Shown: positions 20,622 to 38,575, counted from the first letter of the stretch. The stretch: DNA of 40,000 bases from Candidatus Omnitrophota bacterium (GCA_029564765.1 JAKQPK010000056.1:1-40000), one strand, 5' to 3'. Numbers and translations are program-made. The notes: generated from the letters alone by a model not told the origin.

Positions 20622-21080
20622 ATGAGAAGATTCTTATTGATCATTATTTCTATCCTCTTTCTGTCCGGTTGTGCCCATATCCAGGAAGTAGCGAAATCTA
20701 TCTGGGGATCCTCGACTAAGGCGCTTGAGGAAGCCCGCGACACAGCTACTGTTAAGATGTATGAGTGCTTTCCTGGTGCTTGCTTTAACAAGATCCTTGA
20801 GATCGCGGCCAAACAAGAATATGAGCCCTTTATTAAGGATCGCAAAAGGAATATTATCGTTGTTGTGAACACGAGGCCTATGGCGGCTATGGTCGGAGGC
20901 GAGACCCCTGTTGGGGCAGACACCACCGAGGTAGGCATCTTTATCACGCCATTAAAGCTGAAGGAAGTGAAGGTCGAGATCGTTTCCTTAAGTTCTTCAG
21001 CCCAGCAAAGAGTATCCAATGTCATATTCTCCGGACTGGATAGCGCTTTTCCTGAGATAAAAGAAATTCCCTTGTTATGA
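20622..21080 (+). CDS. Putative lipoprotein upstream of PadR regulator
   Basis: This 152-residue protein has a clear lipoprotein signal: MRRFLLIIISILFLSGC, with LSGC as lipobox. The mature part includes two cysteines (YECFPGACFNKI) and a beta-rich C-terminal half (NIIVVVNTRP, VGIFITPLKLKEVKVEIVSLS). I recognise no named family. It has its own strong promoter with no room for a leader. Its stop overlaps the padR start by ATGA, so the regulator is expressed with it. Location would be a membrane facing the periplasm. Confidence 0.75.
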   Translation: MRRFLLIIISILFLSGCAHIQEVAKSIWGSSTKALEEARDTATVKMYECFPGACFNKILEIAAKQEYEPFIKDRKRNIIVVVNTRPMAAMVGGETPVGADTTEVGIFITPLKLKEVKVEIVSLSSSAQQRVSNVIFSGLDSAFPEIKEIPLL

Positions 21081-21589
21081 TCGAACATGAACTTCTTTTT
21101 TTGGGGCTTTTGATGGAAGGGCCGAAGCATGGCTACGAGATCAAGCGCCAGATCGAAGAAGAGCTTTTTCCTTTTCTTGGCCTTAAGATAAAATCAATTT
21201 ATTATCCGCTGAAAAAGATGGAAAAACTTGGCCTTATCAGCAAGGACTCAGGCCGGGAAGGGAATTTTCCTGAGAAATTCGTTTATAGTATCACGCCGAA
21301 AGGAAAGAAGATCTTTGACCATCTTTTGACAGAGAGCTTTCTTTCTATCGAGCGGCCTTATTTCAATATCGACCTTTCATTATACTTCTTGCCTTATGTA
21401 GATAAAAAGATAGCTCAGCGACGCCTGCGTGCACGCGTTATTTTCCTCAAACGCATCCAAAGAGATCTTGATTCGATCGAAAAGAATCTTAAATCTCCCT
21501 CAGGGCATTTGAAGATCATTCTTGAGCATGATCTTGATCTGGTCAACGCAGAAATTCGGTCCATCACAAAGCTTATCAACACCCTTTAA
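21077..21589 (+). CDS. PadR-family transcriptional regulator
   Basis: Residues 1-90 form the PadR winged helix: FLGLLMEGPKHGYEIKRQIEEEL, then IKSIYYPLKKMEKLGLISKD (recognition helix region) and FVYSITPKGKKIFDHLL. The C-terminal ~80 residues are helical, as in the dimerisation domain of PadR-s1/s2 proteins. PadR proteins classically repress phenolic-acid or multidrug-efflux genes and are released by aromatic ligands. Directly after its stop lies a 25-nt AT-rich palindrome abutting a strong promoter for the acyl-CoA ligase/PKS region. It is therefore a good candidate controller of that region, with an aromatic product or intermediate as possible ligand. The ligand is inference. Confidence 0.88.
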   Translation: MIEHELLFLGLLMEGPKHGYEIKRQIEEELFPFLGLKIKSIYYPLKKMEKLGLISKDSGREGNFPEKFVYSITPKGKKIFDHLLTESFLSIERPYFNIDLSLYFLPYVDKKIAQRRLRARVIFLKRIQRDLDSIEKNLKSPSGHLKIILEHDLDLVNAEIRSITKLINTL

Positions 21590-21887: not shown

Positions 21888-23390
21888 ATGGATATCAAAC
21901 AACTTCTAATTGACAAAGCAAATGTTTATTCTGGCAAAGCCGCTATTATCTTTAAAGACCAAAAGATAAGCTTTTCTAATCTTTCAAAAGAAGTCTTTCG
22001 CCTTGCTCACGCCTTGAAAGGCCTGGGTGTCGGCAAAGGGGACAAAGTCGGCATATACTTGCCAAATTGTCCAGAGTACGTTTATAGCTATTTGGCTGTT
22101 TTCTGTCTTGGCGCGACAGGCGTCCCTCTTGATTTTATGCTTAAGGAAGACGAAATTGTTTCATGCCTGTCTCATTGTGAGGCAAAGTATTTGATCTATG
22201 TCCCTAAAGAAAATTTATTGCCGCAGCAGTTAAAAAGCGTTGTCCCTACCCTCAAAGAGATCATCAGTCTTCAACCGCAAGTTGCGGGAAGCCGTTTTTA
22301 TCAAGAATTTGTGAGCCAGGCAAAAACCGATGCCATAAGCACTGAGACTTCCCAGAAAGACACCGCGCTTATTATGTATACCTCTGGGACCACGGGAAAG
22401 CCAAAAGGCGTTGTTCTCAACTATAAGCATCTTGATGGTTCGCCCGCCGCGATGCACCACTTTGTTGACCTAAGCGATAAAGACACCAAGCTTTGCGCTC
22501 TTCCGCTAAGCCATATCGCTGGACTTATTTATATCCAAAACAGCATCCTCTTTGGTATTACACTTGTTTTGATGGAACGATTTAATCCAGTTGATTTCTT
22601 GCGTAATGTCCAGGAGTATAAGATCACGTGCTTCCATGTCGTTCCAGCTATGTACATGGCTTTCTTGACACTTAAGAATATCGATAAGTTCGATCTTTCA
22701 TCCATTCGCTGGATGGTTGTTTTTGGCGCGCCAAGCTCGCCGGATATGATGCGGCTTTTTAAAGCGCATTGTCCTAACGCCCGGCTTTTGAACGGCTGGG
22801 GAATGACAGAGACATGTCCTCCTAATACTGTTACACCTTTAGATAGCGACAAGATCGAAAGTGTAGGCAAGGTCGCTCCGCATTGCGAGATACGTATTTT
22901 TGATGAGGAAGAAAAAGAGCTCGCGCCTGGCGAGATCGGCGAGATCGTCATCCGCGGCTGGGTCGTGATGGATGGTTATTACAAGGATCCGGAAACCACC
23001 AAAAGTCTTATTTGGAATGGATGGTTTCACACCGGGGACTTGGGGCGATTTGACGAAGAAGGATTTTTGTATATCGTTGGGCGCAAGAAAGAAATGATCA
23101 AGGTTGCCGGACAAATTGTCTACGCGCCAGAAGTTGAGACGGCGCTTCATAAGCATCCTGCTGTCGCCGAGGTCGCGGTGATCGGTATCGCGGATAAGCT
23201 GCGCGGGGAAGCGGTCAAGGCATTTGTCACGCTAAAACCCGGCGTTCCCGCAGACGCTCAAGAGCTAAGATTCTTCGCCAAAGATCATTTGGCGAGCTTT
23301 AAAGTCCCGCAGGAGATCTTGATCTTGCAGGAGTTACCAAAGAATAGATTAGGGAAAATCGATAAAGAAGCGTTAAAGAAAGGAAATTAA
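21888..23390 (+). CDS. AMP-forming acyl-CoA ligase (ANL superfamily)
   Basis: This 500-residue adenylate-forming enzyme activates a carboxylic acid to its CoA thioester via an acyl-AMP. Motifs run in order: the phosphate loop MYTSGTTGKPKGV (residues 163-175), PLSHIAGLIY, GWGMTETCP (adenine/acyl motif), WFHTGDLGRFDEEGFLYIVGRKKEMIKVAG and, near the C-terminus, catalytic lysine K490 in KNRLGKIDKE. It is the first gene after the regulated promoter and structured leader. It could activate a polyketide starter acid, or an acid released by the downstream aldehyde dehydrogenase. The substrate is not readable from the sequence. Confidence 0.88.
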   Translation: MDIKQLLIDKANVYSGKAAIIFKDQKISFSNLSKEVFRLAHALKGLGVGKGDKVGIYLPNCPEYVYSYLAVFCLGATGVPLDFMLKEDEIVSCLSHCEAKYLIYVPKENLLPQQLKSVVPTLKEIISLQPQVAGSRFYQEFVSQAKTDAISTETSQKDTALIMYTSGTTGKPKGVVLNYKHLDGSPAAMHHFVDLSDKDTKLCALPLSHIAGLIYIQNSILFGITLVLMERFNPVDFLRNVQEYKITCFHVVPAMYMAFLTLKNIDKFDLSSIRWMVVFGAPSSPDMMRLFKAHCPNARLLNGWGMTETCPPNTVTPLDSDKIESVGKVAPHCEIRIFDEEEKELAPGEIGEIVIRGWVVMDGYYKDPETTKSLIWNGWFHTGDLGRFDEEGFLYIVGRKKEMIKVAGQIVYAPEVETALHKHPAVAEVAVIGIADKLRGEAVKAFVTLKPGVPADAQELRFFAKDHLASFKVPQEILILQELPKNRLGKIDKEALKKGN

Positions 23391-23391
23391 T

Positions 23392-24144
23392 ATGTCGCAG
23401 ATGAAAAAAGAGATCCATCTTACTGGTCAAGATCTGATCAATATGGTTCAGTTAAGGCCTCAGGATGTCGGCAAGTATGCCGTTGTTCCCGGGCCGCGTG
23501 ACCGCTGCGAAGCGTTCATAAAGAAGATCGAGGAACCGGTGAAGAACTTTTCCTTTATGGAGTATTCGATGTATACCGGGACTTTCGCGGGAACAAAGGT
23601 GACCGCGATCAACGGAGGCCGTTTTTCCGCGGATACGTCGATCACAACAGAGCTGTTATGTAACGCCAAGATCCCTACACTTCTTCGTATTGGGAGTTGT
23701 GGTTCGCTTCGCGAAGATATAAAGGTTGGAGATCTGATCATCGCTGAAACAGCCATGCGCGGTGAAGGTGTCACGCCATATTATGTCGACGCAAATTTCA
23801 AGACTCAGGCGGACGCGTCTCTGACAAGATCTTTGGAGGAAGTTGCTCAAGGGACAGGCCTTAAGATCCATAAGGGCCGCGTCTGGTCTACAGACGCGAT
23901 CTTGCGGGAAACACGCGAACATGTTAGCAAGGCCGTCAACGACGGCTGTATCGGCGTTGACATGGTCACATCGGTTTTTTTGACCATTGCCCAGCTTTAT
24001 AATGTAAAGGCTGCGGTCATCCTGGCCGTGAGCGACAATATCATGACAGGAGAGATGGGCTTTATGGATCCCACATATTATATGGCCGAAGGATCTATGA
24101 TCGGAATGGCGTTGAATTTGATCAAAAAACTTGAAGGAAAATAA
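23392..24144 (+). CDS. Nucleoside phosphorylase (PNP/UDP family)
   Basis: This 250-residue enzyme cleaves nucleosides with phosphate to give base and (deoxy)ribose-1-phosphate. Family marks are YAVVPGPRDRCEAF (phosphate loop), PTLLRIGSCGSLREDIKVGDLIIAE (the core GxxG segment), GCIGVDMVTSVFL (EMET-like region, here VDMVTS) and AVILAVSDN. Length and motifs are closest to uridine phosphorylase/DeoD-like hexamers. It starts 2 nt after the ligase gene and overlaps the next gene by TAATG. With the MtnA-type isomerase and class II aldolase that follow, a 5'-methylthioadenosine or 5'-deoxyadenosine phosphorylase role is attractive, but specificity is not proven. Confidence 0.85.
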   Translation: MSQMKKEIHLTGQDLINMVQLRPQDVGKYAVVPGPRDRCEAFIKKIEEPVKNFSFMEYSMYTGTFAGTKVTAINGGRFSADTSITTELLCNAKIPTLLRIGSCGSLREDIKVGDLIIAETAMRGEGVTPYYVDANFKTQADASLTRSLEEVAQGTGLKIHKGRVWSTDAILRETREHVSKAVNDGCIGVDMVTSVFLTIAQLYNVKAAVILAVSDNIMTGEMGFMDPTYYMAEGSMIGMALNLIKKLEGK

Positions 24145-24836
24145 TGACAAAACGGTTATTTGTTATTTTAGGGCTGTTTGTGATCGCAAGCGGTATTATT
24201 TGCCCTGCAGCTTTTTCCTGCATTGATTTCAGTGTTGGATTCTCGGCAGAAGTTTTACTGACAAAGCCTTCTATCGCTTATGATATGGCAAAGCTCGCTG
24301 AGGCGATCGATGTCAAACATCAGAAGGTCCATTTTGATTCTGTGGAAGGCCTGGCATATGTTTCGCATTACAATAGCAAGGTCGTCGTGATCGTTGCCGA
24401 AGATGTTTTGCGCGAGCCTGTTCGCAAAGCCCAGGGGATCGGCTATGATTATGTCGAGACAAAGGGCTTGGATGTTATGGTCCAGATCCCTTACGCGTTG
24501 ACCGATCGTGGAGCCAAGGAAGTCGTTCAGGTGGATCGCAAGACATTTGATTTTGGCGCGGCGATGGCGCAAGAATTGCGCTGGCTTCTTAAGGTAGGCG
24601 TTATCCAGTCGCTCTCTGACGAAGATATCACCCAGATCGTTTCGCAGTTGACTGGATTTTCATCAGGAAAAGGCGGCCGCATTGTTTTTCTTAAAGAAAG
24701 ATGGATGCCGTCGGGTAGCGTGGAAGGGTTGGAACAAGCGCTTGATATCCCTAAGGGCGCCGAAGACATTTTTCGCGGTGGGTCGTGCTCAGGCCGCGGT
24801 CTTGACCCTGAACAATTATTGGAGCTTGTAAAATAA
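24144..24836 (+). CDS. Exported hypothetical protein in the salvage operon
   Basis: I do not recognise this 230-residue protein. It begins with an N-terminal hydrophobic signal (MTKRLFVILGLFVIASGIIC) and then CPAAFSCIDFSVGFSAE, so it is probably exported. There is no clean lipobox. Cysteines occur at the N-terminus and near the C-terminus (RGGSCSGRGL). The centre is mixed alpha/beta (VVVIVAEDVLREPVRK, LDVMVQIPYAL). It overlaps both neighbours by TAATG, so it is coupled to the phosphorylase and MtnA genes although those are cytoplasmic enzymes. A sensor or an uptake component for a nucleoside-derived compound is possible but unsupported. Confidence 0.65.
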   Translation: MTKRLFVILGLFVIASGIICPAAFSCIDFSVGFSAEVLLTKPSIAYDMAKLAEAIDVKHQKVHFDSVEGLAYVSHYNSKVVVIVAEDVLREPVRKAQGIGYDYVETKGLDVMVQIPYALTDRGAKEVVQVDRKTFDFGAAMAQELRWLLKVGVIQSLSDEDITQIVSQLTGFSSGKGGRIVFLKERWMPSGSVEGLEQALDIPKGAEDIFRGGSCSGRGLDPEQLLELVK

Positions 24837-25807
24837 TGTCTGTTGAATCACCACTTTTTTGGCCGGCGAAATTCGAGGGCGACACTTTGTTTGTCTTGGA
24901 TGAAACGCTTCTGCCAGAGAAGATTCGTTATGTCAAGGTCAAGAATGTTGCTCAAGCGGTCAAGGTTATTCGAGACATGAAAACACGCGCCTTTGGGCAG
25001 TTTCTGGTTGTCTTAAGCGCGTTTTTGCTGGTTTTGGCATCGAATAAAAAAAGTAATGACAAGGTATTGGTCGCGCAGCTCGAGGCCGCAGCGCTTGCCC
25101 TTAACAAAAGCCGTCCTACATTTCCTTTTGCCGAAGTGACATCGATGGTGGTGGGCTGGGCGAAAAAATGCTTAGCAGAAGGTGTTGATGTTAAAAGTTC
25201 TTTGGAAAAGAATATTCAAGGGTTTTTGATGGCGATCCGCGGCCGACGATTAGAACGTGTGCGCAAACTCGCGGAGGCCTTGAAGAGCCACGCAAGTATT
25301 TTGACTCATTGCAATGTCAGCGGTGAGTTGGCGATGGCGGTCGCGATCTGCAAAGCGGAAGGAAAAGAGCTTAAAGTTTTTGCAACAGAAACCCGGCCTT
25401 ATTTTCAGGGAGCCAAGCTGACGGCCTGGGAACTTCGTGCGGTAGGCGTCCATATAACGCTTGTTGCGGATAACGCGGTCGCAACATTACTAAGCCAGGG
25501 CAAGGTCAATGCCGTTGTTATTGGTTCTGACCGCAACTGCGCCAATGGCGATATCGCCAACAAGATCGGCAGTTATCAGATCGCGGTTGTCGCTAAAGAA
25601 TTTGGTGTTCCGGTCTATGTCCTCACGCAGCCCTCCAAGGGAATCGCGACGGGGCAAGACATCCCGATCGAGATCCGTGACGAAAAGGAGTTGTTGGTCT
25701 TTCAGGGAAGGCGCATCGCGCCTAAAGGCGTAAAAGGGTTTTATCCAGGGTTTGACGTTGTCTTTAGTGAACTTATTACACAGGCAATACCGATCAATGT
25801 CCAGTAG
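24836..25807 (+). CDS. mtnA: Methylthioribose-1-phosphate isomerase-like (MtnA/eIF2B family)
   Basis: MtnA converts 5-methylthioribose-1-phosphate, or 5-deoxyribose-1-phosphate in DrdI-type relatives, to the ribulose form. Of the 323 residues, the C-terminal ~180 carry the diagnostic motifs. ILTHCNVSGELA contains C159, ETRPYFQGAKLTAWEL binds phosphate, and VIGSDRNCANGDIANKIGSYQ contains catalytic D232. These correspond to Cys and Asp of characterised enzymes. The N-terminal half is more divergent than usual, with a hydrophobic stretch FLVVLSAFLLVLAS. The phosphorylase upstream and aldolase downstream support a pentose-phosphate salvage step. R15P isomerase or regulatory eIF2B-like roles are alternatives. 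Confidence 0.8.
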   Translation: MSVESPLFWPAKFEGDTLFVLDETLLPEKIRYVKVKNVAQAVKVIRDMKTRAFGQFLVVLSAFLLVLASNKKSNDKVLVAQLEAAALALNKSRPTFPFAEVTSMVVGWAKKCLAEGVDVKSSLEKNIQGFLMAIRGRRLERVRKLAEALKSHASILTHCNVSGELAMAVAICKAEGKELKVFATETRPYFQGAKLTAWELRAVGVHITLVADNAVATLLSQGKVNAVVIGSDRNCANGDIANKIGSYQIAVVAKEFGVPVYVLTQPSKGIATGQDIPIEIRDEKELLVFQGRRIAPKGVKGFYPGFDVVFSELITQAIPINVQ

Positions 25808-26282
25808 ATCATCGCAACCCACAGTTATGCTGCACGGAAATTTTCATTCATCTTTTTTTGCTCTTTTAAAAGAGCAAAAGATAAAAACTGCTTTTGTGCT
25901 CGAAGGCCGTCCGGGATTGGAAGGCGCTAAGATCTTATGCGCGCAATTATTAAAACAGCGCATTCAGCCTGTTTTGATCGCGGATAATATGGCAGGGTTT
26001 TGTTTTTTGCAAGGGCACATCAAACAAGCCTGGATCGCGTATCAGGAAGACCAAGGGGAAAGCCTGCTTTGCGTGATCGGTAGTTTGATCGTGAGCATTC
26101 TGGCAAAACGTCACAAGGTCGCTGTCAAAGCTTTTCCAGCTGCCAAAAAGAGTGCTGCCACTGCATCCCAGGCCAATATTTTTTATTTCGCTGGAAAGCG
26201 AGTGGCCGCTAAGGGTGTGAAAGGGTTCGTCCCTCTGACGGAAAGCGTTTCGAAGAACTATTTAACGGAGATCTACTTATGA
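25797..26282 (+). CDS. Half-size degenerate MtnA-like protein
   Basis: I place the start at ATG 25797, inside the end of mtnA (11-nt overlap). The 161 residues align with the C-terminal Rossmann-like half of the preceding enzyme. FVLEGRPGLEGAKIL matches FATETRPYFQGAKL, IQPVLIADNMAGFCF matches HITLVADNAVATLL, and FAGKRVAAKGVKGFVPL matches FQGRRIAPKGVKGFYPG. The Cys-containing HCN loop is absent. The GSDRxxANGD segment has become CVIGSLIVSILAKRH, so the catalytic Asp is lost. It cannot be an isomerase alone. A regulatory or structural partner of the full-length enzyme, as in eIF2B-type heteromers, is a reasonable guess. Confidence 0.7.
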   Translation: MSSRSSQPTVMLHGNFHSSFFALLKEQKIKTAFVLEGRPGLEGAKILCAQLLKQRIQPVLIADNMAGFCFLQGHIKQAWIAYQEDQGESLLCVIGSLIVSILAKRHKVAVKAFPAAKKSAATASQANIFYFAGKRVAAKGVKGFVPLTESVSKNYLTEIYL

Positions 26283-27274
26283 TGGCATGTGGCATGAAAA
26301 AAGACATGATCGAGATAGGCAGCCTTCTCTGGGAAAAGGACCTTGCCTCAGGGCTAAACGGCAACATCAGCTGTCGCGTTGACGCGCAAAAATATTTGAT
26401 CACAGGCCGCGGCACATGCTTGGGCCGGCTGAGCGGCAATGATCTTGTTATGACTGACATGGAAGAAAAAGTTTATGGCAAAGGGCAGCCATCCTCGGAG
26501 AAGACCTTGCACGCGGCGATCTATCAGAATTTTCCTGATGTTAAGGCCGTGATCCACACTCATTTAACCTATGCGAGTGGATATTTCCACGTCAACGACA
26601 AGCTGACGCCCAGCACGTTCGAGTCGCGGCTCTACTTAGGTGAAGTCACATGCGTTGAGCAGTTTACGCCAACCGTGACCGATGTGAAGCCTGTTATTGA
26701 AGCCTTAAAAAAGAATAATATTATGGTCCTCAAGGATCATGGCGTTTTGGCTATGGGAAAGAATTTGTTCGATTGCTTCTTGTTGATCCAGTGCTTGGAA
26801 GAATCAGTCAAGATGGATGTTGTTAGCCGGATCTACGCACAAGACCCAAAAAGCAAAACGCAGGACACAGTATCAAAAGAAAATGGATCTGCGGGAAAGC
26901 GATTTAAATTATTTTCTCAAGAGCAGATCGATGAGATCGTGCGCCTTGTGAACGCTGATGAACAGCTTAAGAAACTTGGCACGGCGACCAATATGACGAT
27001 GCAGTTGGCGGTGAAACTTGATGAGACAAATCAGGCTTATTGCTTTAATTTTGAAAAAGGTGTGATCAAAGATGTGAGTAGCAGCGAAACGGCTGAATTT
27101 GTTGTTTCGGCCTCAGAAAAGGTTTGGCGCGCGGTTTTTGCTCGGGAAATTGATCCATTTGTCGCCACAACACAAAAGAAAATGGTCCTTAAGGGCGATT
27201 TTGCCAAGATCTCAAAATGGTACGCGCCGTGTTCACGTCTTTTTGAACTTTGGCAGCAAGCGCCGGTTGAGTAA
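26279..27274 (+). CDS. Class II aldolase fused to SCP2-like lipid-binding domain
   Basis: Residues 1-190 are a class II aldolase/adducin-type zinc enzyme. LNGNISCRVD binds phosphate, SSEKTLHAAIY supplies E74, IHTHLTY supplies H93 and H95, and LKDHGVLAMG supplies H154. Such enzymes split ketose-1-phosphates to DHAP and an aldehyde (fuculose-1-P, 5-methylthio- or 5-deoxyribulose-1-P). Residues ~211-331 look like an SCP2 sterol-carrier domain (SASEKVWRAVFAREIDPF, KKMVLKGDFAKISKW), a fold that holds hydrophobic molecules. The start overlaps the upstream stop by ATGA. The domain fusion is unusual. MtnB dehydratase is less likely given the aldolase-type neighbours. Confidence 0.8.
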   Translation: MMACGMKKDMIEIGSLLWEKDLASGLNGNISCRVDAQKYLITGRGTCLGRLSGNDLVMTDMEEKVYGKGQPSSEKTLHAAIYQNFPDVKAVIHTHLTYASGYFHVNDKLTPSTFESRLYLGEVTCVEQFTPTVTDVKPVIEALKKNNIMVLKDHGVLAMGKNLFDCFLLIQCLEESVKMDVVSRIYAQDPKSKTQDTVSKENGSAGKRFKLFSQEQIDEIVRLVNADEQLKKLGTATNMTMQLAVKLDETNQAYCFNFEKGVIKDVSSSETAEFVVSASEKVWRAVFAREIDPFVATTQKKMVLKGDFAKISKWYAPCSRLFELWQQAPVE

Positions 27275-27278
27275 ATTT

Positions 27279-28754
27279 ATGAACGAATACAAATTATTTA
27301 TTAATGGTGAGTGGATAGCGCCTCAGTCGGGTGAGTCGATCATTTCCATTGACCCTTCGACAGGGGAATCGATCGCCAAGATCGCCAAGGCAAGCGCTTT
27401 GGATGCGCAAAAAGCGATCGCAGCAGCAAGGCGCGCATTTGACGCGGGCGTTTGGAGCGCGCTATCACCTGAGAAACGTGGACAAGCCCTTGAAAAGATC
27501 GCTCAAACGATCCGTTCTCACGCCAAAGAGCTTGCCGAGATCGAAAGCCGAGATACCGGAAAAACCATCAAGCAGGCCACTTTTATTGATGTGCCGACAT
27601 GCGCGGATACGTTCTCGTATTTTTCAAAGATCAAGCATGAGCTCGAGGCTAAAAAATTAAATATCGTAGCACCGGTTGACAGCAAGATTTGCTGTGAGCC
27701 TGTTGGCGTTGTCGCAGCGATAGCCGCGTGGAATTATCCTTTGATCTTTTTTGGCTGGAAAGTCGCGCCCGCCTTAATGGCAGGCAACTGTGTTGTCTAT
27801 AAGCCTTCGAGCGTGGCAAGCCTTTCTATTGTGCGTGTTTTTGAGATCATTGCGGATGTTTTACCTGCGGGGGTTTTGAATCTCGTCACTGGCGGCCGTG
27901 AAGTAGGCGAAGAGCTTGCGCGTTCAGTTGATGTTGACATGCTGACTTTTACAGGCGGCACGTCGACGGGCCAAGAGATCATGAAGATGGCTTCTGTGAA
28001 CGCGAAAAAGCTTTGTCTTGAGTTAGGCGGGAAGTCGCCTAATATTGTTTTTGCTGATTGTGATATGGATGCGGCCTTAGGTGGCGCGATGTCCGCGATA
28101 TTCATGAATCAGGGACAGATGTGTGTAGCGGGCTCAAGGCTTTTGCTGGAAGACAAAATTTATGACGAATTTATCGCAAGGCTTGCTAAAGAAGCTCAGC
28201 GTTTGAAGATCGGCAATGCCCTTGATTACACGACGGAATTTGGGCCGCTAATAAGTCGTGAACATCGGGATGCGGTCCTGAAATTTATCGATCAAGGGAA
28301 AAAAGAAGGCGCAAGACTTGTTTGCGGAGGCAAAATCGGCGACGTCGCCGATTTTGATAAAGGTGCTTTTTTAGAGCCAACTATTTTTGTGGACGTTAAA
28401 AGTTCCATGGCTATAGCTCAAGAGGAGATCTTCGGGCCAGTTTTATCCGTGATCAAGTTTTCGGGGGTTGATGAGGCTGTAAAGATCGCTAATGATAGCA
28501 AATATGGTTTAGCCGCGATGATCTGGACTAAAGACAAAGAAAAGGCGGAAAACGTCTCACGATCTTTACGCTGCGGAACGGTGTGGATCAATACTTACGG
28601 CGGATTTTATAACGAAGCTCCGTTCGGTGGCTACAAACAAAGCGGTTTTGGGAGGGAGTTAGGCGTTGAAGGGCTTTTGGAATACACGCAGGCTAAGCAT
28701 GTCTGTCGCGATACGACGCCGGGCGGAAAGTCGTTAGCCGCAAGCTGGTTCTGA
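27279..28754 (+). CDS. NAD(P)-dependent aldehyde dehydrogenase
   Basis: I place the start at ATG 27279, four bases after the aldolase stop, giving 491 residues (MNEYKLFINGEWI, the usual ALDH N-terminus). Catalytic marks are N152 in WNYPLIFF, cofactor segment KPSSVASLS, FTGGTSTGQEI, general base E248 in LELGGKSP and nucleophile C282 in NQGQMCVAGSR. IFGPVL and APFGGYKQSGFGRE close the fold. It oxidises an aldehyde to the acid. By position it would remove the aldehyde released by the upstream aldolase (methylthioacetaldehyde or acetaldehyde). It could also serve fatty aldehydes. Confidence 0.9.
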   Translation: MNEYKLFINGEWIAPQSGESIISIDPSTGESIAKIAKASALDAQKAIAAARRAFDAGVWSALSPEKRGQALEKIAQTIRSHAKELAEIESRDTGKTIKQATFIDVPTCADTFSYFSKIKHELEAKKLNIVAPVDSKICCEPVGVVAAIAAWNYPLIFFGWKVAPALMAGNCVVYKPSSVASLSIVRVFEIIADVLPAGVLNLVTGGREVGEELARSVDVDMLTFTGGTSTGQEIMKMASVNAKKLCLELGGKSPNIVFADCDMDAALGGAMSAIFMNQGQMCVAGSRLLLEDKIYDEFIARLAKEAQRLKIGNALDYTTEFGPLISREHRDAVLKFIDQGKKEGARLVCGGKIGDVADFDKGAFLEPTIFVDVKSSMAIAQEEIFGPVLSVIKFSGVDEAVKIANDSKYGLAAMIWTKDKEKAENVSRSLRCGTVWINTYGGFYNEAPFGGYKQSGFGRELGVEGLLEYTQAKHVCRDTTPGGKSLAASWF

Positions 28755-28931
28755 CTAAACCACCCAAAGACAGGAATTATTTTTTTAGCAACAAGTTTCA
28801 TCAAGTTTTTTAAAAGGTTTTTTTGCGTCAGCAGAAGTAATTGAAGTTTTATTGCCAATCTTGATGACCGTTAGCTCTATCGAGTTCTCAAGTTTTGGTC
28901 AGCTTTCAACAGGTTAAAAAAAGGAGGGCAT
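28755..28931 (+). other. Intergenic region between ALDH and SPFH genes
   Basis: A 177-nt gap, the largest in the region after the leader. I see no convincing promoter, hairpin terminator or ORF; only poly-T runs and, at its end, a strong AAAGGAGG Shine-Dalgarno for the SPFH gene. Transcription may continue through it. Confidence 0.4.
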
Positions 28932-29861
28932 ATGCAGGGTTTTGGTTTCTTTCTTTTTATTTTAATGGTCATTTTTATTGTCGCCATGAGTAATTGGCGC
29001 GAGAATCGACGCGGGTCAAAGATCATTGATGTGGATCCGGATATGACAGCATTCTTGCGCAAAAGCCGTAATTTAGCGATCGTTATTGTTATCGCGGTTA
29101 TTGGCGTGATCGTCCTAGCTCGCTCCATTCGCATCGTGCCTGCGGGTACGGTTGGCGTGTATGATATTTTTGGGCGAGTTTCTGAAGATGAACGCCAGCC
29201 CGGTCTTAATTTTATCAATCCCTTGGCTAATTTGGTTATCATGAACGTTAAGACCGAAGAAGTTGCGGAAAACATGCCGGTACCTTCGCAAGAAGGATTG
29301 ACGATCAACCTGGACGTCTCTGTGCTCTATCGCCTTGATCCTTCTCGAGCAAGCGATATTTATAAGACAGTGGGTATGAATTACCGCCAAGTGGTCATTT
29401 TGCCGCAATTTCGTTCTGCTTGCCGAGACGCCACAGTAGGGTATGAGGCAAAAGCGCTTTACACTCTAAGCCGTGAAGCCATTTCTGGAAAAATATATGG
29501 AGAGCTGCAAAAAATGCTGTCCGAACGCGGGATTATCCTTGAAAAAGTATTGCTTCGCGCGATTAAATTGCCGCAGACGGTAGCTCAGGCGATCGAGCAG
29601 AAGTTGAAGTTTGAGCAAGAGTCCGAACAGATGAAATTTATTTTACAAAAAGAGAAACAAGAAGCTGAGCGGCGGGTGATCGAAGCGGAAGGTATCGCGA
29701 AAGCGCAAGAGATCATTAACGAGACCCTGACCCCGGCCTATTTGCAACTGGAAGCGATCCAGGCGCAGAAGAAAATGGCGGAAAGTCCAAACCACACGAC
29801 GGTCTATATTCCGTCGGGTGACAATGGTATTCCGCTGATCCGTAATTTAGGCATTAAGTAA
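28932..29861 (+). CDS. SPFH/prohibitin-like membrane protein
   Basis: The 309-residue protein has two N-terminal hydrophobic segments (FGFFLFILMVIFIVAM and NLAIVIVIAVIGVIVLA). A band-7 domain starts at RIVPAGTVGVYDIFGRV and runs through EGLTINLDVSVLYRLDP, FRSACRDATVGYEA and ILEKVLLRAIKLP. A charged coiled coil follows (FEQESEQMKFILQKEKQEAERRVIEAEGIAKAQ, shown for position only in part). SPFH proteins form large cage-like membrane assemblies that organise membrane proteins or proteases. Its place just before the polyketide synthase genes could mean a membrane scaffold for them, but this is contextual. Confidence 0.88.
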   Translation: MQGFGFFLFILMVIFIVAMSNWRENRRGSKIIDVDPDMTAFLRKSRNLAIVIVIAVIGVIVLARSIRIVPAGTVGVYDIFGRVSEDERQPGLNFINPLANLVIMNVKTEEVAENMPVPSQEGLTINLDVSVLYRLDPSRASDIYKTVGMNYRQVVILPQFRSACRDATVGYEAKALYTLSREAISGKIYGELQKMLSERGIILEKVLLRAIKLPQTVAQAIEQKLKFEQESEQMKFILQKEKQEAERRVIEAEGIAKAQEIINETLTPAYLQLEAIQAQKKMAESPNHTTVYIPSGDNGIPLIRNLGIK

Positions 29862-29881: not shown

Positions 29882-30136
29882 ATGCAATGGGAAGAGAAGA
29901 CACAACAAAAATATGAGGATATGATCAGAAAGATCCCTTTATTTCACCGGGAGATCACAAAAAGGGTTGTACCGCAGAAAGCAGAAGAGAATGCGAAGGC
30001 AAGAGGTTCTTCCGTCATCGAAGAGGGGGATGTTGTCCAGGCGTTCTTAACTGAAGTCCCTAAAGCGTTTTACAGTTTGATGATCCGCTTGATGGATGAT
30101 GTGAAATTCAATTATCGCCCATTTATAGGAAAGTAA
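29882..30136 (+). CDS. PCP_red-domain-like small protein
   Basis: I choose ATG 29882 over GTG 29867, as the former starts right at the conserved MQWEEKTQQKYEDMI. The 84 residues follow the pattern of the C-terminal 'proto-chlorophyllide reductase 57 kDa subunit' (PCP_red) domain: RKIPLFHREITKRVVPQKAEENAKARG, then IEEGDVVQAF. That small helical domain occurs in many non-photosynthetic bacteria with unknown function. There are no chlorophyll genes nearby. The extra C-terminal ~25 residues are not part of the domain. A protein-interaction or DNA-binding helper is possible. Confidence 0.6.
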   Translation: MQWEEKTQQKYEDMIRKIPLFHREITKRVVPQKAEENAKARGSSVIEEGDVVQAFLTEVPKAFYSLMIRLMDDVKFNYRPFIGK

Positions 30137-30137
30137 G

Positions 30138-31136
30138 ATGAAGGTTTCTGTTATTGGAGCTGGTGCGATTGGGTCTGTTGTCGCCGCGTATTTAGCGAAG
30201 GCCGGCGCTGATATAACTTTGATCGGCAAGCCGTCGCAAGTAGAGATGATCCAAAGAGATGGCTTAACGGTCCGCGGCATTCGCGGCGAAGAAGTATTTC
30301 GCCTGAAAGCCCTTACGCGTCTTGATCAATACTATGATCTAAATATTTTTACCGTTAAGACCCAAGACTTGGAAGATGCATATCAAGCCAATCATGAATT
30401 TTTGGACAAAGGATGGATCCTGACCAGTCAGAATGGCGTGCAGGCGGATAATATCTTGAGCGTTCATTTTGACCGTGAAAAGATGTTGTCCAGTATTGTG
30501 ATGTTTGGTGCGACTTATGCGCAATCAGGAGAGGTTTTGTTTAACTTTGAAGGGGATTGGATCATCGGAAAGCCGTTCTTTCCCGTTGACCAAAGCACGC
30601 ATGAGATCGCAGGCCTTTTGGGAAAAGCTTTTAAGACCGTGGTTTCCAATAATATTATCGGCATGAAGTGGCTTAAGGTCTTTGTGAATTTTAACAATTG
30701 TATCTGCGCGGTTTTGGGAACATCCATGCAAGAGACTTTTAGCGATATGGATTGTTGTCGTTTGAGCGTCGCACTCTTAAGGGAAGGTGTTGCGGTCATT
30801 CAAAAAGCTGGTATTGAATTAGTTTCGTTGCCGCAATTTCCCGTCGACAGGGTGTTTGGGCTGGCAGCCATGCCTGAAGGTCAGGCCGCAGGCATCATCA
30901 ATAAAACCTTGACGGGATTAAGCAAGGAGCCCGTATACGGGTCGATCTTACAAAGCATCATGCGGGGGCGCTCCAGTGAGATCGACTTTATTAACGGTGA
31001 GATCGTGAGTATCGGCAGGCAGATACATGTTGCGGTGCCGCTGAACGAAAAGATCGTCGATCTGGTACACAAGGTTGAGCAGAGCGGGAAGTTTTTAGCT
31101 GTTGATCAATTAAAGCAAGAATTAAATTTTGTTTAA
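30138..31136 (+). CDS. Ketopantoate reductase-like NADPH enzyme (PanE/ApbA family)
   Basis: The 332 residues include VIGAGAIGSVVAAYLAKAG (Rossmann NADPH loop), FTVKTQDLEDAY, LTSQNGVQADNIL, GMKWLKVFVNFNNCICAVLGT (catalytic Lys region) and RGRSSEIDFINGEIVSIG (PanE C-terminal signature). Ketopantoate reductase makes pantoate, the precursor of CoA and of the ACP phosphopantetheine arm. Alternatively, family members in biosynthetic clusters reduce other 2-keto acids. It lies one base after the PCP_red gene and directly before KS-alpha, so either cofactor supply or tailoring is possible. No other pan genes are in the window. Confidence 0.82.
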   Translation: MKVSVIGAGAIGSVVAAYLAKAGADITLIGKPSQVEMIQRDGLTVRGIRGEEVFRLKALTRLDQYYDLNIFTVKTQDLEDAYQANHEFLDKGWILTSQNGVQADNILSVHFDREKMLSSIVMFGATYAQSGEVLFNFEGDWIIGKPFFPVDQSTHEIAGLLGKAFKTVVSNNIIGMKWLKVFVNFNNCICAVLGTSMQETFSDMDCCRLSVALLREGVAVIQKAGIELVSLPQFPVDRVFGLAAMPEGQAAGIINKTLTGLSKEPVYGSILQSIMRGRSSEIDFINGEIVSIGRQIHVAVPLNEKIVDLVHKVEQSGKFLAVDQLKQELNFV

Positions 31137-31165
31137 TTTGGATCATGAAAAGAAGGGAAGTTGAC

Positions 31166-32425
31166 ATGAGAAGACGAGTGGTGGTCACAGGCGTAGGCGT
31201 TATCGCACCCAACGGCATTGGCAATGAAGCCTGTTTTAATGCTATGGTCAATGGTGTCTCAGGGATCAAGCGTGTCACGGAATTTGATGTGTCGATGTTC
31301 ATGACCCAGGTCGCGGCCCAGGTCAGGGATTTTGATCCATTAAAGCTAGGGCTTACCAACGATGAAGCGCTTCGCATGGATCGTTATGTCCAGTTTGCCG
31401 TTGTCGCCGCCCGCATGGCGCTTGAAGATTCAAAGATGGATCTAAGTAAAGTCAACAAAGAGCGCGCAGGGGTATCGCTTGCTAACGCGATCTGCGGGAC
31501 CAAATATATGGAGGAAGAGTTTGCTCTCGTAACCGATAGCGGTAAAGAGGCTATTGATCCTGCAAAGGTTCGTCCGGACCTTTACGACGCGGCGATGTTT
31601 AATACGCCGTCGAGCGAGATCTCTGCAAAATATGGACTTCAAGGGATCTGCAACACTATTTCGACCGGATGCACCGCCGGAACAGACTCGGTTGGATTCT
31701 CATTCGAGACGATCCGTGATGGGGATGCGGATATTATGATCACAGGAGCTTCTGAAGCGCCGATCACGCCCATTACCTTTGGCGCTTTTGATGTGGTGAA
31801 TGTCTTGGCCGTGCGCAATGATGAACCAGAAAAAGCGTCACGTCCATTTGACAATCAGCGAAACGGATTTGTTATTTCGGAAGGATGCGGTATTTTGATC
31901 TTAGAGGAGCTTGAGCACGCCAAAAAGCGTGGCGCCAAGATCTACTGCGAGGTGATCGGTTTTGGAACAACCTGCAATGCTTATCACATGACAGATCTTC
32001 CTTCCGACGGGGAACCGATGAAGGATTGCATTGTCCTTGCGATGGAAGATGCTGGGATAAAGCCGCAGGATATTGATTATATTAACGCTCATGGATCCTC
32101 CACGAGACAAAACGATGTTTTTGAAACAAATGCTTATAAAATGGCGTTAGGCGAATGGGCATACAAGATTCCGATCAGCTCCTTGAAGTCCATGATCGGA
32201 CACCCCTTGGCGGGCGCTAATGGTGTTGAGCTTGCGATTGGGGCATTGATCTTTGAGCGTAATATTTTACCTCCGACGATCAACCAGGAATTTCCAGATC
32301 CGCAGTGCGATTTGGACTATGTGCCGAATGTGGCACGGGAAAAGAAAGTCAACTGCATGCTTAAGACCAGTAGCGGTTTTTCCGGCGTGCATTCGTCAAT
32401 GGTTTTAAGACGCTATAATGGATGA
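31166..32425 (+). CDS. Type II PKS ketosynthase alpha (KS-alpha)
   Basis: I choose ATG 31166 (AGAAGGGA 7 nt upstream) over 31145; it gives 419 residues starting MRRRVVVTGVGV. The condensing-enzyme triad is intact: C169 in STGCTAGTDSVG, H309 in INAHGSSTRQND, K341 and H346 in SLKSMIGHPLAGA. The STGCT nucleophile box and NAHGS(S)TxQND box are those of type II polyketide KS-alpha rather than housekeeping FabF. The numbering coincides with what I recall for the actinorhodin KS. It extends acyl chains with malonyl-ACP. KS-beta follows 14 nt later, as in classical minimal PKSs. No malonyl transferase is nearby; FabD probably serves. Confidence 0.9.
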   Translation: MRRRVVVTGVGVIAPNGIGNEACFNAMVNGVSGIKRVTEFDVSMFMTQVAAQVRDFDPLKLGLTNDEALRMDRYVQFAVVAARMALEDSKMDLSKVNKERAGVSLANAICGTKYMEEEFALVTDSGKEAIDPAKVRPDLYDAAMFNTPSSEISAKYGLQGICNTISTGCTAGTDSVGFSFETIRDGDADIMITGASEAPITPITFGAFDVVNVLAVRNDEPEKASRPFDNQRNGFVISEGCGILILEELEHAKKRGAKIYCEVIGFGTTCNAYHMTDLPSDGEPMKDCIVLAMEDAGIKPQDIDYINAHGSSTRQNDVFETNAYKMALGEWAYKIPISSLKSMIGHPLAGANGVELAIGALIFERNILPPTINQEFPDPQCDLDYVPNVAREKKVNCMLKTSSGFSGVHSSMVLRRYNG

Positions 32426-32439
32426 AAGGTAGATAGAGA

Positions 32440-33675
32440 ATGAAACGAATTGCTATTACAGGAATGGGGATCGTGTCCCCAAGCGGGATCGATGAAAGAA
32501 AATTCTGGGCCAATATCAGCCATGGCCGCTCAGCGGTTAAGAAAATAGAACGGTTTGATGCGTCCAAATATCCATCGCGCATCGCCGGCCAGGTCCATGA
32601 ATTGGATGCGTACAGTAACGTATCATCGCGTCTTTTAAAGAAGATCGATGTCTTTTCGCATATGGCGCTGGTGGCTTCACAGATCGCTATTCAGGACGCC
32701 AAGATCGATATGGAAAAAGAAAATTTGAAACGCGCCGGTATTTTTGCCGGTAATGCGATCGGTGGTTGGCTCTATGCTGAAACAGAGCTTCGCGACATGT
32801 ATCTGGAGGGGCGTGAAGGCGTGAGCCCTTTTATGGCTTCAGCGTGGTTCCCGGCAGCGCCTCAAGGACAGATTTCCATTAATTACAAGATCAAAGGTTA
32901 CAGTAAAACGATCGTATCAGACCGCGCGAGCGCCTTGATGGCTATTGCTTATGGCGCAAAGAATCTTAACGATGGAAAGAATGATTTTATTTTGGCTGGC
33001 GGTATGGAAGCACCGGTTTCGCCTTATGGGTTACTGTGCTGTAACACATCCGGCGTTCTCACGCAGCGCAATGATACGCCAGAGACAGCGTATCGGCCAT
33101 TTGATAAAACACGTGATGGGATGGCTGTTGCCGAAGGTGCAGGTATCTTGATCCTTGAAACAGAAGAACGTGCTAAAAAACGAGGCGCACCGATCAACGG
33201 CTATATCATTGGCTATGGGACGACAACTGATGGGGTTGATCGTATTGAGCCGGCAGAGGATGGAGCTGAGCTTTCACGCGCCATTACAATGGCGCTTGCG
33301 GACGCAGGCCTTGAGCCGAATCAGATCGATTATATTTGCGCAGATGGTGCCGGAACACAGATCGGTGATATCTCGGAAACTCGAGGCATTAAGAAAGCTT
33401 TGGGTGCCTACGCAAAGAAAATACCGGTTTCCGCGCCCAAATCCGTTTTTGGGAACATGTTGGGAGCTTGCGGTGCGGTGGATGTGGCGGCGACGATTCT
33501 CGCCATGGAGCATAGCATGGTGCCTCCCACGATCAATTTGAATACGCCTGATCCGGACTGCGATCTGGATTATTGTCCGAATAAAGCGCAAAGCAAGGAA
33601 ATAAAGAACGCCCTTGTTATCAATCGTGGACGCGGCGGGATCAATTCGGTCCTTGCTTTGCAGAGGGGCAGATAG
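32440..33675 (+). CDS. Type II PKS KS-beta / chain-length factor
   Basis: A 411-residue thiolase-fold partner of KS-alpha. All catalytic positions are lost. The nucleophile Cys is R162 (KTIVSDRASALMA), the first His is D302 (YICADGAGTQIGD), and the second is N339 (KSVFGNMLGACGA); K334 is kept. Loss of the nucleophile defines KS-beta/CLF, which heterodimerises with KS-alpha and sets chain length. Actinobacterial CLFs usually have Gln at the nucleophile position, so Arg is unusual. Overall fold marks remain (ITGMGIVSPSG, FAGNAIGG, AEGAGILILE). The protein is not a decayed pseudogene: the frame is clean and the glycine motifs are preserved. Confidence 0.87.
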   Translation: MKRIAITGMGIVSPSGIDERKFWANISHGRSAVKKIERFDASKYPSRIAGQVHELDAYSNVSSRLLKKIDVFSHMALVASQIAIQDAKIDMEKENLKRAGIFAGNAIGGWLYAETELRDMYLEGREGVSPFMASAWFPAAPQGQISINYKIKGYSKTIVSDRASALMAIAYGAKNLNDGKNDFILAGGMEAPVSPYGLLCCNTSGVLTQRNDTPETAYRPFDKTRDGMAVAEGAGILILETEERAKKRGAPINGYIIGYGTTTDGVDRIEPAEDGAELSRAITMALADAGLEPNQIDYICADGAGTQIGDISETRGIKKALGAYAKKIPVSAPKSVFGNMLGACGAVDVAATILAMEHSMVPPTINLNTPDPDCDLDYCPNKAQSKEIKNALVINRGRGGINSVLALQRGR

Positions 33676-34299: not shown

Positions 34300-34536
34300 A
34301 TGAGCTTGGAAGTAAAGGTCAAAGAAGTTTTTAAGGATGTTCTGGACATTGGCCCAGATGAGATCAAAGAAAATGAAAAGTTGGATGTGTGCCTAGGCAT
34401 TGACTCGACGGAGATGGTCGAGATCACGGTCGGGCTTAAAAAAGCCTTCAATCTTGATATTCCAAACAATGGATTCAAGAAGACCCAAACATTCAATGAG
34501 ATCGTGGAATTTATTAGATCTAAAGAGGCGCAATAA
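34300..34536 (+). CDS. Acyl carrier protein of the type II PKS
   Basis: ATG 34300 is chosen because of GGGAGG 6-7 nt upstream. The 78-residue protein has the carrier-protein pattern EVKVKEVFKDVLDIGPDEI, then LGIDSTEMVEITVGLKKAF with S36 as the phosphopantetheine attachment residue (IDSTEMVE in the DSLxxVE position), and a C-terminal helix. Thr rather than Leu follows the Ser, unlike most fatty-acid ACPs. It completes the KS-alpha/KS-beta/ACP minimal synthase. A phosphopantetheinyl transferase is not in the window. Confidence 0.88.
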   Translation: MSLEVKVKEVFKDVLDIGPDEIKENEKLDVCLGIDSTEMVEITVGLKKAFNLDIPNNGFKKTQTFNEIVEFIRSKEAQ

Positions 34537-34550
34537 CGTATCTCGTCGCT

Positions 34551-34607
34551 CGTGAAGCGTGAAGCGATAAAGTTTTTGCGGAATACGTTTCACGAATGAC
34601 GCTTCAC
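34551..34607. repeat. Intergenic palindromic GTGAAGCG repeat
   Basis: GTGAAGCGT (34552-34560) and ACGCTTCAC (34599-34607) are perfect reverse complements 38 nt apart. Inside them lie a second GTGAAGCG (34559-34566) and CGTTTCACG (34586-34594). It fills the ACP-cyclase gap. It looks like a dispersed repetitive (MITE/REP-like) unit or a transcript hairpin rather than a terminator, since no T-run follows. Confidence 0.5.
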
Positions 34608-34625
34608 AGAAAAAAGGATTTTACC

Positions 34626-35429
34626 ATGAAGATCATAGACCTAAGCCTGCCGATCGACGATAGCTTAGTGGAAACACATGCGGCCAAGATCGCACGTATC
34701 ACACATGCGCAAGGCGTTGAGCATTTCAACGAGATCATGATGAGCAAAAAACCGAACGGCCAGGAACGTTTCGCCAAAGGCGAGCGTGTGGCAACCGCGG
34801 ATGAGATTCCCGACGGAGAATTACTTTCGTTGGAAATTGTCAATTCATCGGTTCATATGGGAACACATGTGGATGCGCCATTTCATTACGGCAGTAAATG
34901 CGCCGGAAAGCCCGCCAAGATGATCGAGGATGTGCCGCTTGAATGGTGTATTGGCCCGGGGGTTGTTTTGGATTTTACACATATGAAATTTCCTGATGTG
35001 ATCAAAAAAGACGACATCGTTGCCGCGCTCAAAAAGATCAATTATAAAATCAAGTCGATGGACATTGTTCTTATTTATACCGGTGGCGACAAACTTTTAG
35101 GAACCGATGATTACGTCAATAAATATGTCGGTATGATGCCGGATGCCGTGGAATATCTTTTGGATCAAGGGGTCAAGATGATGGGTGTTGACACGATTGG
35201 CTTGGATAGACCGTGCTTTGGCATGTTCAAAGAATTCCTGGACACAAAAGATAAGAGCAAGATTTGGCCAAGCCATTTTCTCGGACGTCGTCGGGAATTC
35301 TGCCACATGGAGCGCATGGGAAATCTTGGCGCAATCCCGAAACCCTTTGGGTTTACGGTGCAATGCTTTCCGGTGCGAGTTAAGAATGCCGGGGCGGGAT
35401 GGACACGCGCAGTGGCTATCGTAGAGTAA
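34626..35429 (+). CDS. PF04199-type metal-dependent polyketide cyclase
   Basis: I place the start at ATG 34626 (AAGGA 8 nt upstream), which gives MKIIDLSLPIDDSL, the canonical family N-terminus, and 267 residues. The metal-binding signature HMGTHVDAPFHYG supplies H77, H81, D83 and H87. GVDTIGLDRP, and near the end MERMGNLGAIPKPFGF, match the cyclase/kynurenine-formamidase fold. Members occur in aromatic polyketide pathways as cyclases and elsewhere as KynB. Here, between the ACP and the SRPBCC cyclase, a second- or third-ring cyclase or lactone-forming role is most likely. The exact reaction is inference. Confidence 0.85.
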   Translation: MKIIDLSLPIDDSLVETHAAKIARITHAQGVEHFNEIMMSKKPNGQERFAKGERVATADEIPDGELLSLEIVNSSVHMGTHVDAPFHYGSKCAGKPAKMIEDVPLEWCIGPGVVLDFTHMKFPDVIKKDDIVAALKKINYKIKSMDIVLIYTGGDKLLGTDDYVNKYVGMMPDAVEYLLDQGVKMMGVDTIGLDRPCFGMFKEFLDTKDKSKIWPSHFLGRRREFCHMERMGNLGAIPKPFGFTVQCFPVRVKNAGAGWTRAVAIVE

Positions 35430-36218: not shown

Positions 36219-36671
36219 ATGGGACACACACGAAATTCAATAGTAATAAATGCTCCTTATGATTTAGTTTTTGATATCTCTAACCACATCGAGCGCTGGA
36301 CAGAGCTTTTTGGTAAGGAATATGTCAAAGCCGAAGTCCTAGAGCGCAAGGGAAATGAAATTACCTTTCGCCTGACCGACGATGAAAACAAAAGCTGGGT
36401 CTCCAAGCGTTGGCTTTTTAAGGATCTTAAGTTCGCTGTGGCCTCGCGCCATGAGCCAATGTTCCCGTTTAAATACATGAAGATCGTTTGGCTTTATACT
36501 GAAGTTGAAGGCGGCATCTTGATGACATGGATCCAGGATTTTGAGATGGACCCAGGGTTCACAAAGTTCACCGCAGAACAGATTGAAGGCTTTATTAATC
36601 GTCATTCCCAAGACAACCTGAAGATCTTCAAAGATCTCATTGAAAAAGAGGCAGGAAATCAGAAATCGTAA
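36219..36671 (+). CDS. SRPBCC polyketide aromatase/cyclase (TcmN/WhiE-ORFVI type)
   Basis: This 150-residue helix-grip protein has an excellent Shine-Dalgarno (AGGAGG). The whole length follows TcmN ARO/CYC and WhiE ORFVI. The parallels are NSIVINAPYDLVFDISN, IERWTELF (Trp27), VLERKGNEITFRL, SWVSKRW, FKYMKIVWLY, GGILMTWIQDFEMDP and, near the end, INRHSQDNLKIFKDLI. Such enzymes fold the poly-beta-ketone held on the ACP and make the first aromatic ring(s). This is the strongest single indicator that the locus makes an aromatic polyketide. It overlaps the MFS start by about 32 nt. Confidence 0.9.
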   Translation: MGHTRNSIVINAPYDLVFDISNHIERWTELFGKEYVKAEVLERKGNEITFRLTDDENKSWVSKRWLFKDLKFAVASRHEPMFPFKYMKIVWLYTEVEGGILMTWIQDFEMDPGFTKFTAEQIEGFINRHSQDNLKIFKDLIEKEAGNQKS

Positions 36672-37798: not shown

Positions 37799-38575
37799 AT
37801 GAATGTGAATTTACAAGGGAAAAACGCGATCATTACCGGCGCGAGCAAAGGCATTGGAAAGACCATTGCGCTTCGCTTAGCTGAGCGTGGTGTTAATCTA
37901 GCGCTCGCCGCGCGTACCCAGGCAACACTGGATGAGACGATCAGAGAGATCAAGAAGGATCACAAGGTCAAGGTCATTGGTGTTGCGACAGATGTCAGCA
38001 AGTTGGAGGATCTGCAGAATTTAGCGAATACAGCTATGAAGGAATTAGGACCTATTGATATCTTGATCAACAATGCCGGCGTTTCCAGTCAGTATCCTTT
38101 TGAAAAGCAACCGCTCGAGGATATTGAGCGCTTGGCGCATACAAATTATTTAGGATATGTTCGCTTGATCCGCCTTATCATCCCGCATATGATCGAACGC
38201 AAGCAGGGTGCGATCATTAATATGGTTTCGGGCTCGACGCTTTGTGATCCGATCCCAAAAACATTTGTCACATACAGCTCGCTAAAGGTTGGGTTACGCG
38301 CATTTTTAAAAGGGTTGTTCTGGGAAATGCGCGATCACAATATCAAGATCACGTCTATTCTGCCTGGCGTTGTGGACACAGGTTTGACGGATAAACTAGA
38401 CAACATCGCGCAAGAACAGCGTGACCGCCTGATGGCGCCTGAAGCGGTCGCGGACATGGTTTTGTTCGCGCTATCGGTTCCGGCCAATACATGTCCTCTT
38501 GAGTTGGCGGTCATTAATCAAAAGACCCCATGGACAAAGCCGGTGATCGATTATACGCAGGCCCAGGCAAAGTAA
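37799..38575 (+). CDS. Short-chain dehydrogenase/reductase, probable ketoreductase
   Basis: This classical SDR of 258 residues has TGASKGIG (residues 13-20, NADP loop), NNAG (91-94), the catalytic Ser in MVSGST, Y159 and K163 in YSSLK, and the PG motif in ILPGVVDTG. FabG-like enzymes in type II PKS loci reduce a keto group of the nascent chain, often at C-9, before cyclisation. It starts four bases after the MFS stop, so the genes are coupled. Reduction of a released aromatic is also possible. Cofactor preference is probably NADPH (Arg39 in AART). Confidence 0.87.
   Translation: MNVNLQGKNAIITGASKGIGKTIALRLAERGVNLALAARTQATLDETIREIKKDHKVKVIGVATDVSKLEDLQNLANTAMKELGPIDILINNAGVSSQYPFEKQPLEDIERLAHTNYLGYVRLIRLIIPHMIERKQGAIINMVSGSTLCDPIPKTFVTYSSLKVGLRAFLKGLFWEMRDHNIKITSILPGVVDTGLTDKLDNIAQEQRDRLMAPEAVADMVLFALSVPANTCPLELAVINQKTPWTKPVIDYTQAQAK

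Follow-up and report, generated by a model that had tools for sequence, protein, structure and literature searches.

A conserved, predicted DHAP-shunt-like module tied to an aromatic polyketide cluster and a radical-SAM enzyme in Omnitrophota

The window analyzed here, a stretch of 40,000 nucleotides, is contig 18 of a 1.86-Mb Omnitrophota genome (G000) near Candidatus Aceula; the genes described below, from padR to an amidohydrolase gene, all lie on its + strand. ORFs and Pfam matches agree that a nucleoside phosphorylase, an isomerase, a class II aldolase and an aldehyde dehydrogenase (ALDH) stand in pathway order at 23392-28754, as the first-pass annotation of this DNA had proposed. Upstream are genes for a PadR-type transcriptional regulator (21077-21589; Pfam PadR 2.7e-12), which synteny places directly 5' of the ligase gene in many relatives, and for that AMP-forming acyl-CoA ligase (21888-23390; Pfam AMP-binding 1e-90), whose best models are long-chain/FadD-like, the top NCBIfam model, PRK06187, giving 469 bits with a cut-off of 476. 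The block is tightly packed: one base separates the ligase from the phosphorylase gene, which overlaps a 230-aa ORF by one base; that ORF overlaps the isomerase gene by one base; a truncated IF-2B paralog and the aldolase have an ATGA in common (26279-26282); and four bases separate the aldolase from the ALDH gene, all of which bears out the tight or overlapping junctions described earlier. Terminator-like sites show no excess over chance, and the + strand gap at 28755-28931 holds none. The first-pass annotation made no mention of the 230-aa ORF, the half-length IF-2B paralog, the SCP2 domain on the aldolase, the radical-SAM partner, the aromatic type of the polyketide synthase (PKS), or the LsrF and alcohol dehydrogenase genes of some related loci.

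The order of the block is found again in relatives, identities of the phosphorylase, isomerase, aldolase and ligase being roughly 50-76%, and because of this recurrence the arrangement is far beyond chance. A public-genome scan queried with the phosphorylase alignment only returned 165 relatives, Candidatus Aceula lacicola being the top match; the best 80 of these 165 were inspected and nearly all are labeled Omnitrophota, the exceptions (labels as recorded) being two Planctomycetales and one 'bacterium', and there may be kin in other phyla. The 230-aa ORF (24144-24836), which has an N-terminal hydrophobic stretch, a weak TIGR04292-like stretch and no Pfam match, is not found between phosphorylase and isomerase in relatives (L033 and L034 included) and is probably a lineage-specific insertion.

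The phosphorylase (23392-24144; Pfam PNP_UDP_1, E 3e-35) belongs to a distinct NP-I subfamily of its own and scores under every NCBIfam cut-off among the models listed. It retains the phosphate residues Arg38 and Arg99 and the base residue Asp215. The EME motif with the Glu that we take to hold the ribose diol in its relatives has become DMV, D190-M191-V192 being present in 127 of 127 phosphorylase sequences, with Val at the diol-Glu position in every one; the position that aligns with the O5'-binding His in Streptococcus uridine phosphorylase is Met in 113 of the 127. These motif changes may bear on the choice of substrate.

The isomerase (24836-25807; IF-2B/MtnA-like Pfam match, E 3e-51) retains Arg51, Arg93, Cys159, Asp232 and Lys243, although three loops near Arg51, Arg93 and Cys159 are shorter than in housekeeping MtnA. 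Its score with TIGR00512 is 226.9 against a cut-off of 279, and a 100/100 branch separates the block isomerases, as a distinct clade, from housekeeping MtnAs in the tree. Adjoining it, in a position conserved in the window's gene order, is the truncated IF-2B paralog, corresponding to the C-terminal half (approximately 25797-26282, 25797 being the first ATG, with a TTG start at 25752; Pfam IF-2B 1.6e-6, and 3.4e-14 for an ortholog). It has Gly at the catalytic Cys position and lacks the GSDR motif, and its role is probably structural or regulatory.

In the aldolase (26279-27274; Pfam Aldolase_II 2e-38), Glu74, His93, His95 and His154 are invariant, and a Foldseek search with its AlphaFold model (pLDDT 90, pTM 0.61) finds fuculose-phosphate aldolases and the Bacillus DrdA structure 6btg. 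At 331 residues it is longer than the solved FucA, DrdA and AraD chains (200-231 aa) and has a C-terminal SCP2 domain that is carried in gene orders A, B and D (defined below), although SCP2 scores are only slightly above the Pfam cut-off and the orientation of the domain in the model is uncertain. The dehydrogenase (27279-28754; Pfam ALDH 8e-171) resembles betaine and phenylacetaldehyde dehydrogenases and scores under the NCBIfam cut-offs. The order of chemistry suggested by the annotation, namely phosphorolysis, isomerization, retro-aldol cleavage, oxidation and CoA activation, is what these families would be expected to perform, and their catalytic residues are retained.

Downstream, an SPFH/Band 7 protein gene (28932-29861; Pfam Band_7) fills the slot held in most relatives by a gene for a cobalamin-binding radical-SAM protein; L039, L068 and L119 likewise have no radical-SAM gene in that slot. 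In relatives this 490-aa protein combines cobalamin-binding and radical-SAM domains; its best models are BchE and HpnJ, with scores under their cut-offs, and its gene is within the cluster in most relatives, including four loci that have no PKS. The genome of the window encodes a 55% radical-SAM paralog elsewhere, adjoined by a TetR-like gene (by eye). Near this genome's second radical-SAM gene, L167 278-1075 encodes what by eye resembles a class D beta-lactamase.

The polyketide genes follow: a small, cluster-conserved PCP_red/DUF2621-like protein (29882-30136; weak Pfam matches and synteny), a PanE/ApbA-family reductase (30138-31136; Pfam ApbA), a KS-alpha with Cys176, His316 and His353 retained (31145-32425), and a KS-beta, or chain-length-factor-like, partner (32440-33675) that appears inactive, its catalytic Cys/His positions being replaced (DRAS, ADGA, GNML). 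Next are an acyl carrier protein with its phosphopantetheine Ser (DSTE; 34300-34536; Pfam PP-binding 1.6e-8), a PF04199 cyclase/metal-dependent hydrolase (34596-35429), a TcmN/WhiE-type aromatase/cyclase (36219-36671), an MFS transporter (36640-37794; Pfam MFS_1), a ketoreductase-like SDR (37799-38575) and an amidohydrolase-2 protein (38840-39757). The aromatase matches TcmN (2rez, 1.9e-25) and S. coelicolor polyketide cyclase chains (3tl1, 2.8e-26), with E values of about 1e-25, and the solved chains nearest to the amidohydrolase are 5-carboxyvanillate decarboxylase and related aromatic-acid decarboxylases. Its KS/CLF pair, ACP and TcmN/WhiE-like aromatase place the PKS among the aromatic type II systems. 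It shares with the TcmN and WhiE systems the KS/CLF pair, ACP, aromatase, SDR and PF04199 cyclase, and differs from them in its FabF-like KS, its radical-SAM and nucleoside module, and its occurrence in an uncultured phylum. KS-CLF pairs of Omnitrophica are listed in a 2023 catalog, the consulted part of which makes no mention of the nucleoside module (PMC10132072). A TIGR04076 protein (two matched stretches) is encoded 5' of KS-alpha in gene orders B and C (L141 2093-2698 and relatives); none was seen in the window.

The joining of the block to a PKS, also claimed in the first-pass annotation, is real and conserved. Among 285 mutually related Omnitrophota genomes, the phosphorylase is found in 101, the KS in 98 and both in 93, and the two genes lie within 14 kb of each other in 75 of 77 same-contig pairs. 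The Fisher p value for co-occurrence is 1.5e-58, which overstates independence given the kinship of the genomes; more weight falls on the separate gene orders. Order A, that of the window, recurs in genome after genome and places the nucleoside block before the PKS: padR, ligase, phosphorylase, isomerase, truncated IF-2B, aldolase, ALDH, radical-SAM and PCP_red-like genes, then PanE, KS-alpha, KS-beta, ACP, cyclase, aromatase, MFS, SDR and amidohydrolase. Order B, in other families, has the PKS part followed by the nucleoside part, and order C has ligase and phosphorylase, the PKS, and then isomerase, aldolase and ALDH; of 27 genomes checked, 26 have the aldolase, frequently some 10 kb 3' of the KS. 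The linkage thus survives at least three gene orders, and that the two gene sets stay together through several reshufflings suggests one pathway rather than ordinary recycling. Independence of the two blocks, which would have told against a joint pathway, holds for a minority only: the phosphorylase is without a KS match in 8 of the 101 genomes, and four inspected loci have no PKS beside the module. These four loci, in four genomes, show order D (ligase, radical-SAM, phosphorylase, isomerase, truncated IF-2B, aldolase) with RND transporter, LolA-like and DUF1302 proteins after the aldolase; ALDH is present in two of them (L184, L187) and was not seen in the remaining pair. In six loci an RND transporter gene comes after the module, together with genes for LolA-like and DUF1302 proteins. 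Genes for accA-like and L,D-transpeptidase-like proteins (by eye) stand upstream of padR in L184, L185 and L177.

Some related loci carry what may be an alternative exit from the pathway. An LsrF homolog lies inside the aldolase-ALDH-ligase segment in 13 loci, in most of them with a Zn alcohol dehydrogenase, and in three further loci (two genomes) LsrF and alcohol dehydrogenase genes stand upstream of padR (LsrF-bearing loci: L042, L051, L082, L089, L093, L094, L098, L100, L104, L108, L118, L120, L123, L142, L196, L200). The one homolog tested scored 370.8 bits against a cut-off of 297, so that a likeness to LsrF of AI-2 degradation (3-hydroxy-5-phosphonooxypentane-2,4-dione thiolase) is evident within a related locus; it differs from that system in standing with the Zn alcohol dehydrogenase and the aldolase, and the window has no LsrF. 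The known substrate of LsrF is the C4-oxidized form of 5-deoxyribulose-1-phosphate. By this chemistry, 5-deoxyribulose-1-phosphate could be oxidized at C4 to the LsrF substrate and then converted to DHAP and acetyl-CoA.

Radical adenosylation followed by base removal by an NP-I enzyme is known from the HpnH/HpnG pair of hopanoid side-chain formation and from the MqnE/MqnB pair of the futalosine pathway. The module proposed below would follow the same logic, differing in that its radical-SAM protein is BchE/HpnJ-like and in that it would go on to isomerize and cut the ribose; squalene-hopene cyclase was found in 0 of 16 genomes, with two control genomes positive, and a hopanoid link was discarded. 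A quinone link was also set aside, UbiA presence being mixed among cluster-bearing genomes (absent, for example, from G003 and G171). Ladderane-type cluster calls have been reported in Omnitrophota (PMC9902471); the radical-SAM enzyme matches BchE and HpnJ far better than the ladderane model, and this link too was rejected. A close likeness is to the published DHAP shunt (MtnP or MtnN+MtnK, MtnA or DrdI, Ald2 or DrdA) and drd clusters, which consist of the same enzyme families: a phosphorylase, an IF-2B-type isomerase and a class II aldolase cluster in one operon, with the isomerase Cys and Asp and the aldolase Glu and three His among the catalytic residues retained (PMC6079011, PMC10986504). 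Unlike the shunt, the block has its own phosphorylase subfamily, shortened isomerase loops and a truncated isomerase paralog, and adds an ALDH, an acyl-CoA ligase, a radical-SAM partner, PKS linkage and an SCP2-fused aldolase in place of a single-domain one of about 200-230 residues.

We interpret the locus as a conserved, dedicated, predicted DHAP-shunt-like module with ties to the aromatic PKS and the radical-SAM enzyme. The proposal draws on the families, gene order, linkage, catalytic residues, changed motifs and separate MtnP/MtnA pair that we observe; the reactions of the module, the nature of the group R and the use of the product by the PKS are predictions. Our preferred reading, held tentatively, is that the module works with the cobalamin-binding radical-SAM enzyme on a substrate with a hydrophobic R, as part of the aromatic-polyketide cluster. 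The radical-SAM enzyme would generate a 5'-deoxyadenosyl product, R-CH2(5')-adenosine, from which the phosphorylase would remove adenine to give R-CH2-ribose-1-phosphate; the isomerase would convert this to the corresponding ribulose-1-phosphate, which the SCP2 aldolase would cleave to DHAP and R-CH2-CHO; ALDH would oxidize the aldehyde to R-CH2-COOH, and the ligase would form R-CH2-CO-CoA as a primer or building block. Use of the ligase product as a polyketide primer, as envisaged in the first-pass annotation, is possible. Three features, namely the altered isomerase loops, the acyl ligase and the SCP2 domain on the aldolase, incline us to a hydrophobic substituent, which seems more likely as R than H. 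The radical-SAM gene in the clusters of most relatives and the RND transporter after the module in six loci also speak for this reading. Against this reading stand the absence of a radical-SAM gene from the window's cluster, the marginal SCP2 scores and the LsrF loci, and we know of no cobalamin radical-SAM enzyme with a stable 5'-adenosyl adduct of a lipid or polyketide as its established product.

Two of the alternatives fare poorly. Salvage of 5'-methylthioadenosine (MTA), one of the substrates named in the first-pass annotation, set next to the PKS by an accident of gene order, would suit an isomerase whose fold and sequence are nearest MtnA. The block phosphorylase and isomerase, however, fall below the curated MTAP and MtnA cut-offs and form subfamilies of their own, whereas housekeeping copies pass: the genome of the window has its MtnA ortholog elsewhere, in a housekeeping run with alr, tsaB, tsaE, thiL and metG, and its MTAP (MtnP) ortholog between proC and ileS (both by eye). 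The MTAP cut-off was tested in four genomes, including G006, which is without the block, and G014 and G020, both also without the block, have a family-level MTAP-type match. With the PKS linkage kept over three gene orders and 93 genomes besides, MTA salvage is largely refuted, and we consider it very improbable. General nucleoside or ribose-1-phosphate catabolism, in which ribose-1-phosphate would pass through ribulose-1-phosphate to DHAP and glycolaldehyde and on to glycolate, is improbable as well: DeoD, uridine-phosphorylase and ribulose-1-phosphate-aldolase models do match, under their cut-offs, but other residues have taken the place of the diol Glu and, at the aligned position, of the uridine-phosphorylase His, and the tight linkage to an aromatic PKS is left without explanation.

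A close rival, possible though somewhat doubtful in our estimation, is plain recycling of 5'-deoxyadenosine (R = H), in which the radical-SAM enzyme would make free, inhibitory 5'-deoxyadenosine and the module would turn it into adenine, DHAP, acetaldehyde, acetate and acetyl-CoA; in some species, by known chemistry, LsrF and the alcohol dehydrogenase could yield acetyl-CoA and DHAP directly. This LsrF exit is its best point, since the homolog scores over the curated cut-off and adjoins the aldolase or ALDH, and the LsrF loci favor R = H. The radical-SAM gene also travels with the module even where there is no PKS, which would suit a substrate shared by the two settings, and published accounts of the DHAP shunt and of drd clusters (PMC6079011, PMC10986504) describe matching families. 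Recycling, on the other hand, would not require the SCP2 domain, the shorter loops of the isomerase or a ligase of FadD-like type; MTAP and MtnA orthologs are present already, and both enzymes are known elsewhere to handle 5'-deoxy substrates (for MtnA, PMC10986504); and G006, without the block, still has eight radical-SAM relatives. The lost ribose-diol Glu is accounted for by neither a hydrophobic R nor H.

Retained in many families of an uncultured phylum and accompanied by nucleoside enzymes of its own, this aromatic PKS cluster is unlike the usual patchy natural-product clusters, which suggests that it serves a conserved component of the cell. Should the module act on an adenosylated intermediate, it would provide a new route by which a molecule gains a two-carbon acid; should free 5'-deoxyadenosine be its substrate, it would amount to a shunt of the DHAP type, linked to one radical-SAM enzyme and emptying into acetyl-CoA. 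A bolder version of our preferred reading, which we regard as unlikely, is a phylum-wide pathway with the ribose of SAM as a two-carbon donor, in which a cobalamin radical-SAM enzyme would attach 5'-deoxyadenosyl to a molecule that is hydrophobic or derived from a polyketide, and a remodeled DHAP shunt would trim it to R-CH2-CO-CoA, feeding a cell-envelope aromatic polyketide.

Apart from the cluster, the window encodes at 677-1762 an AMPK1_CBM (glycogen-recognition) domain fused to a ParA/MinD-type ATPase.
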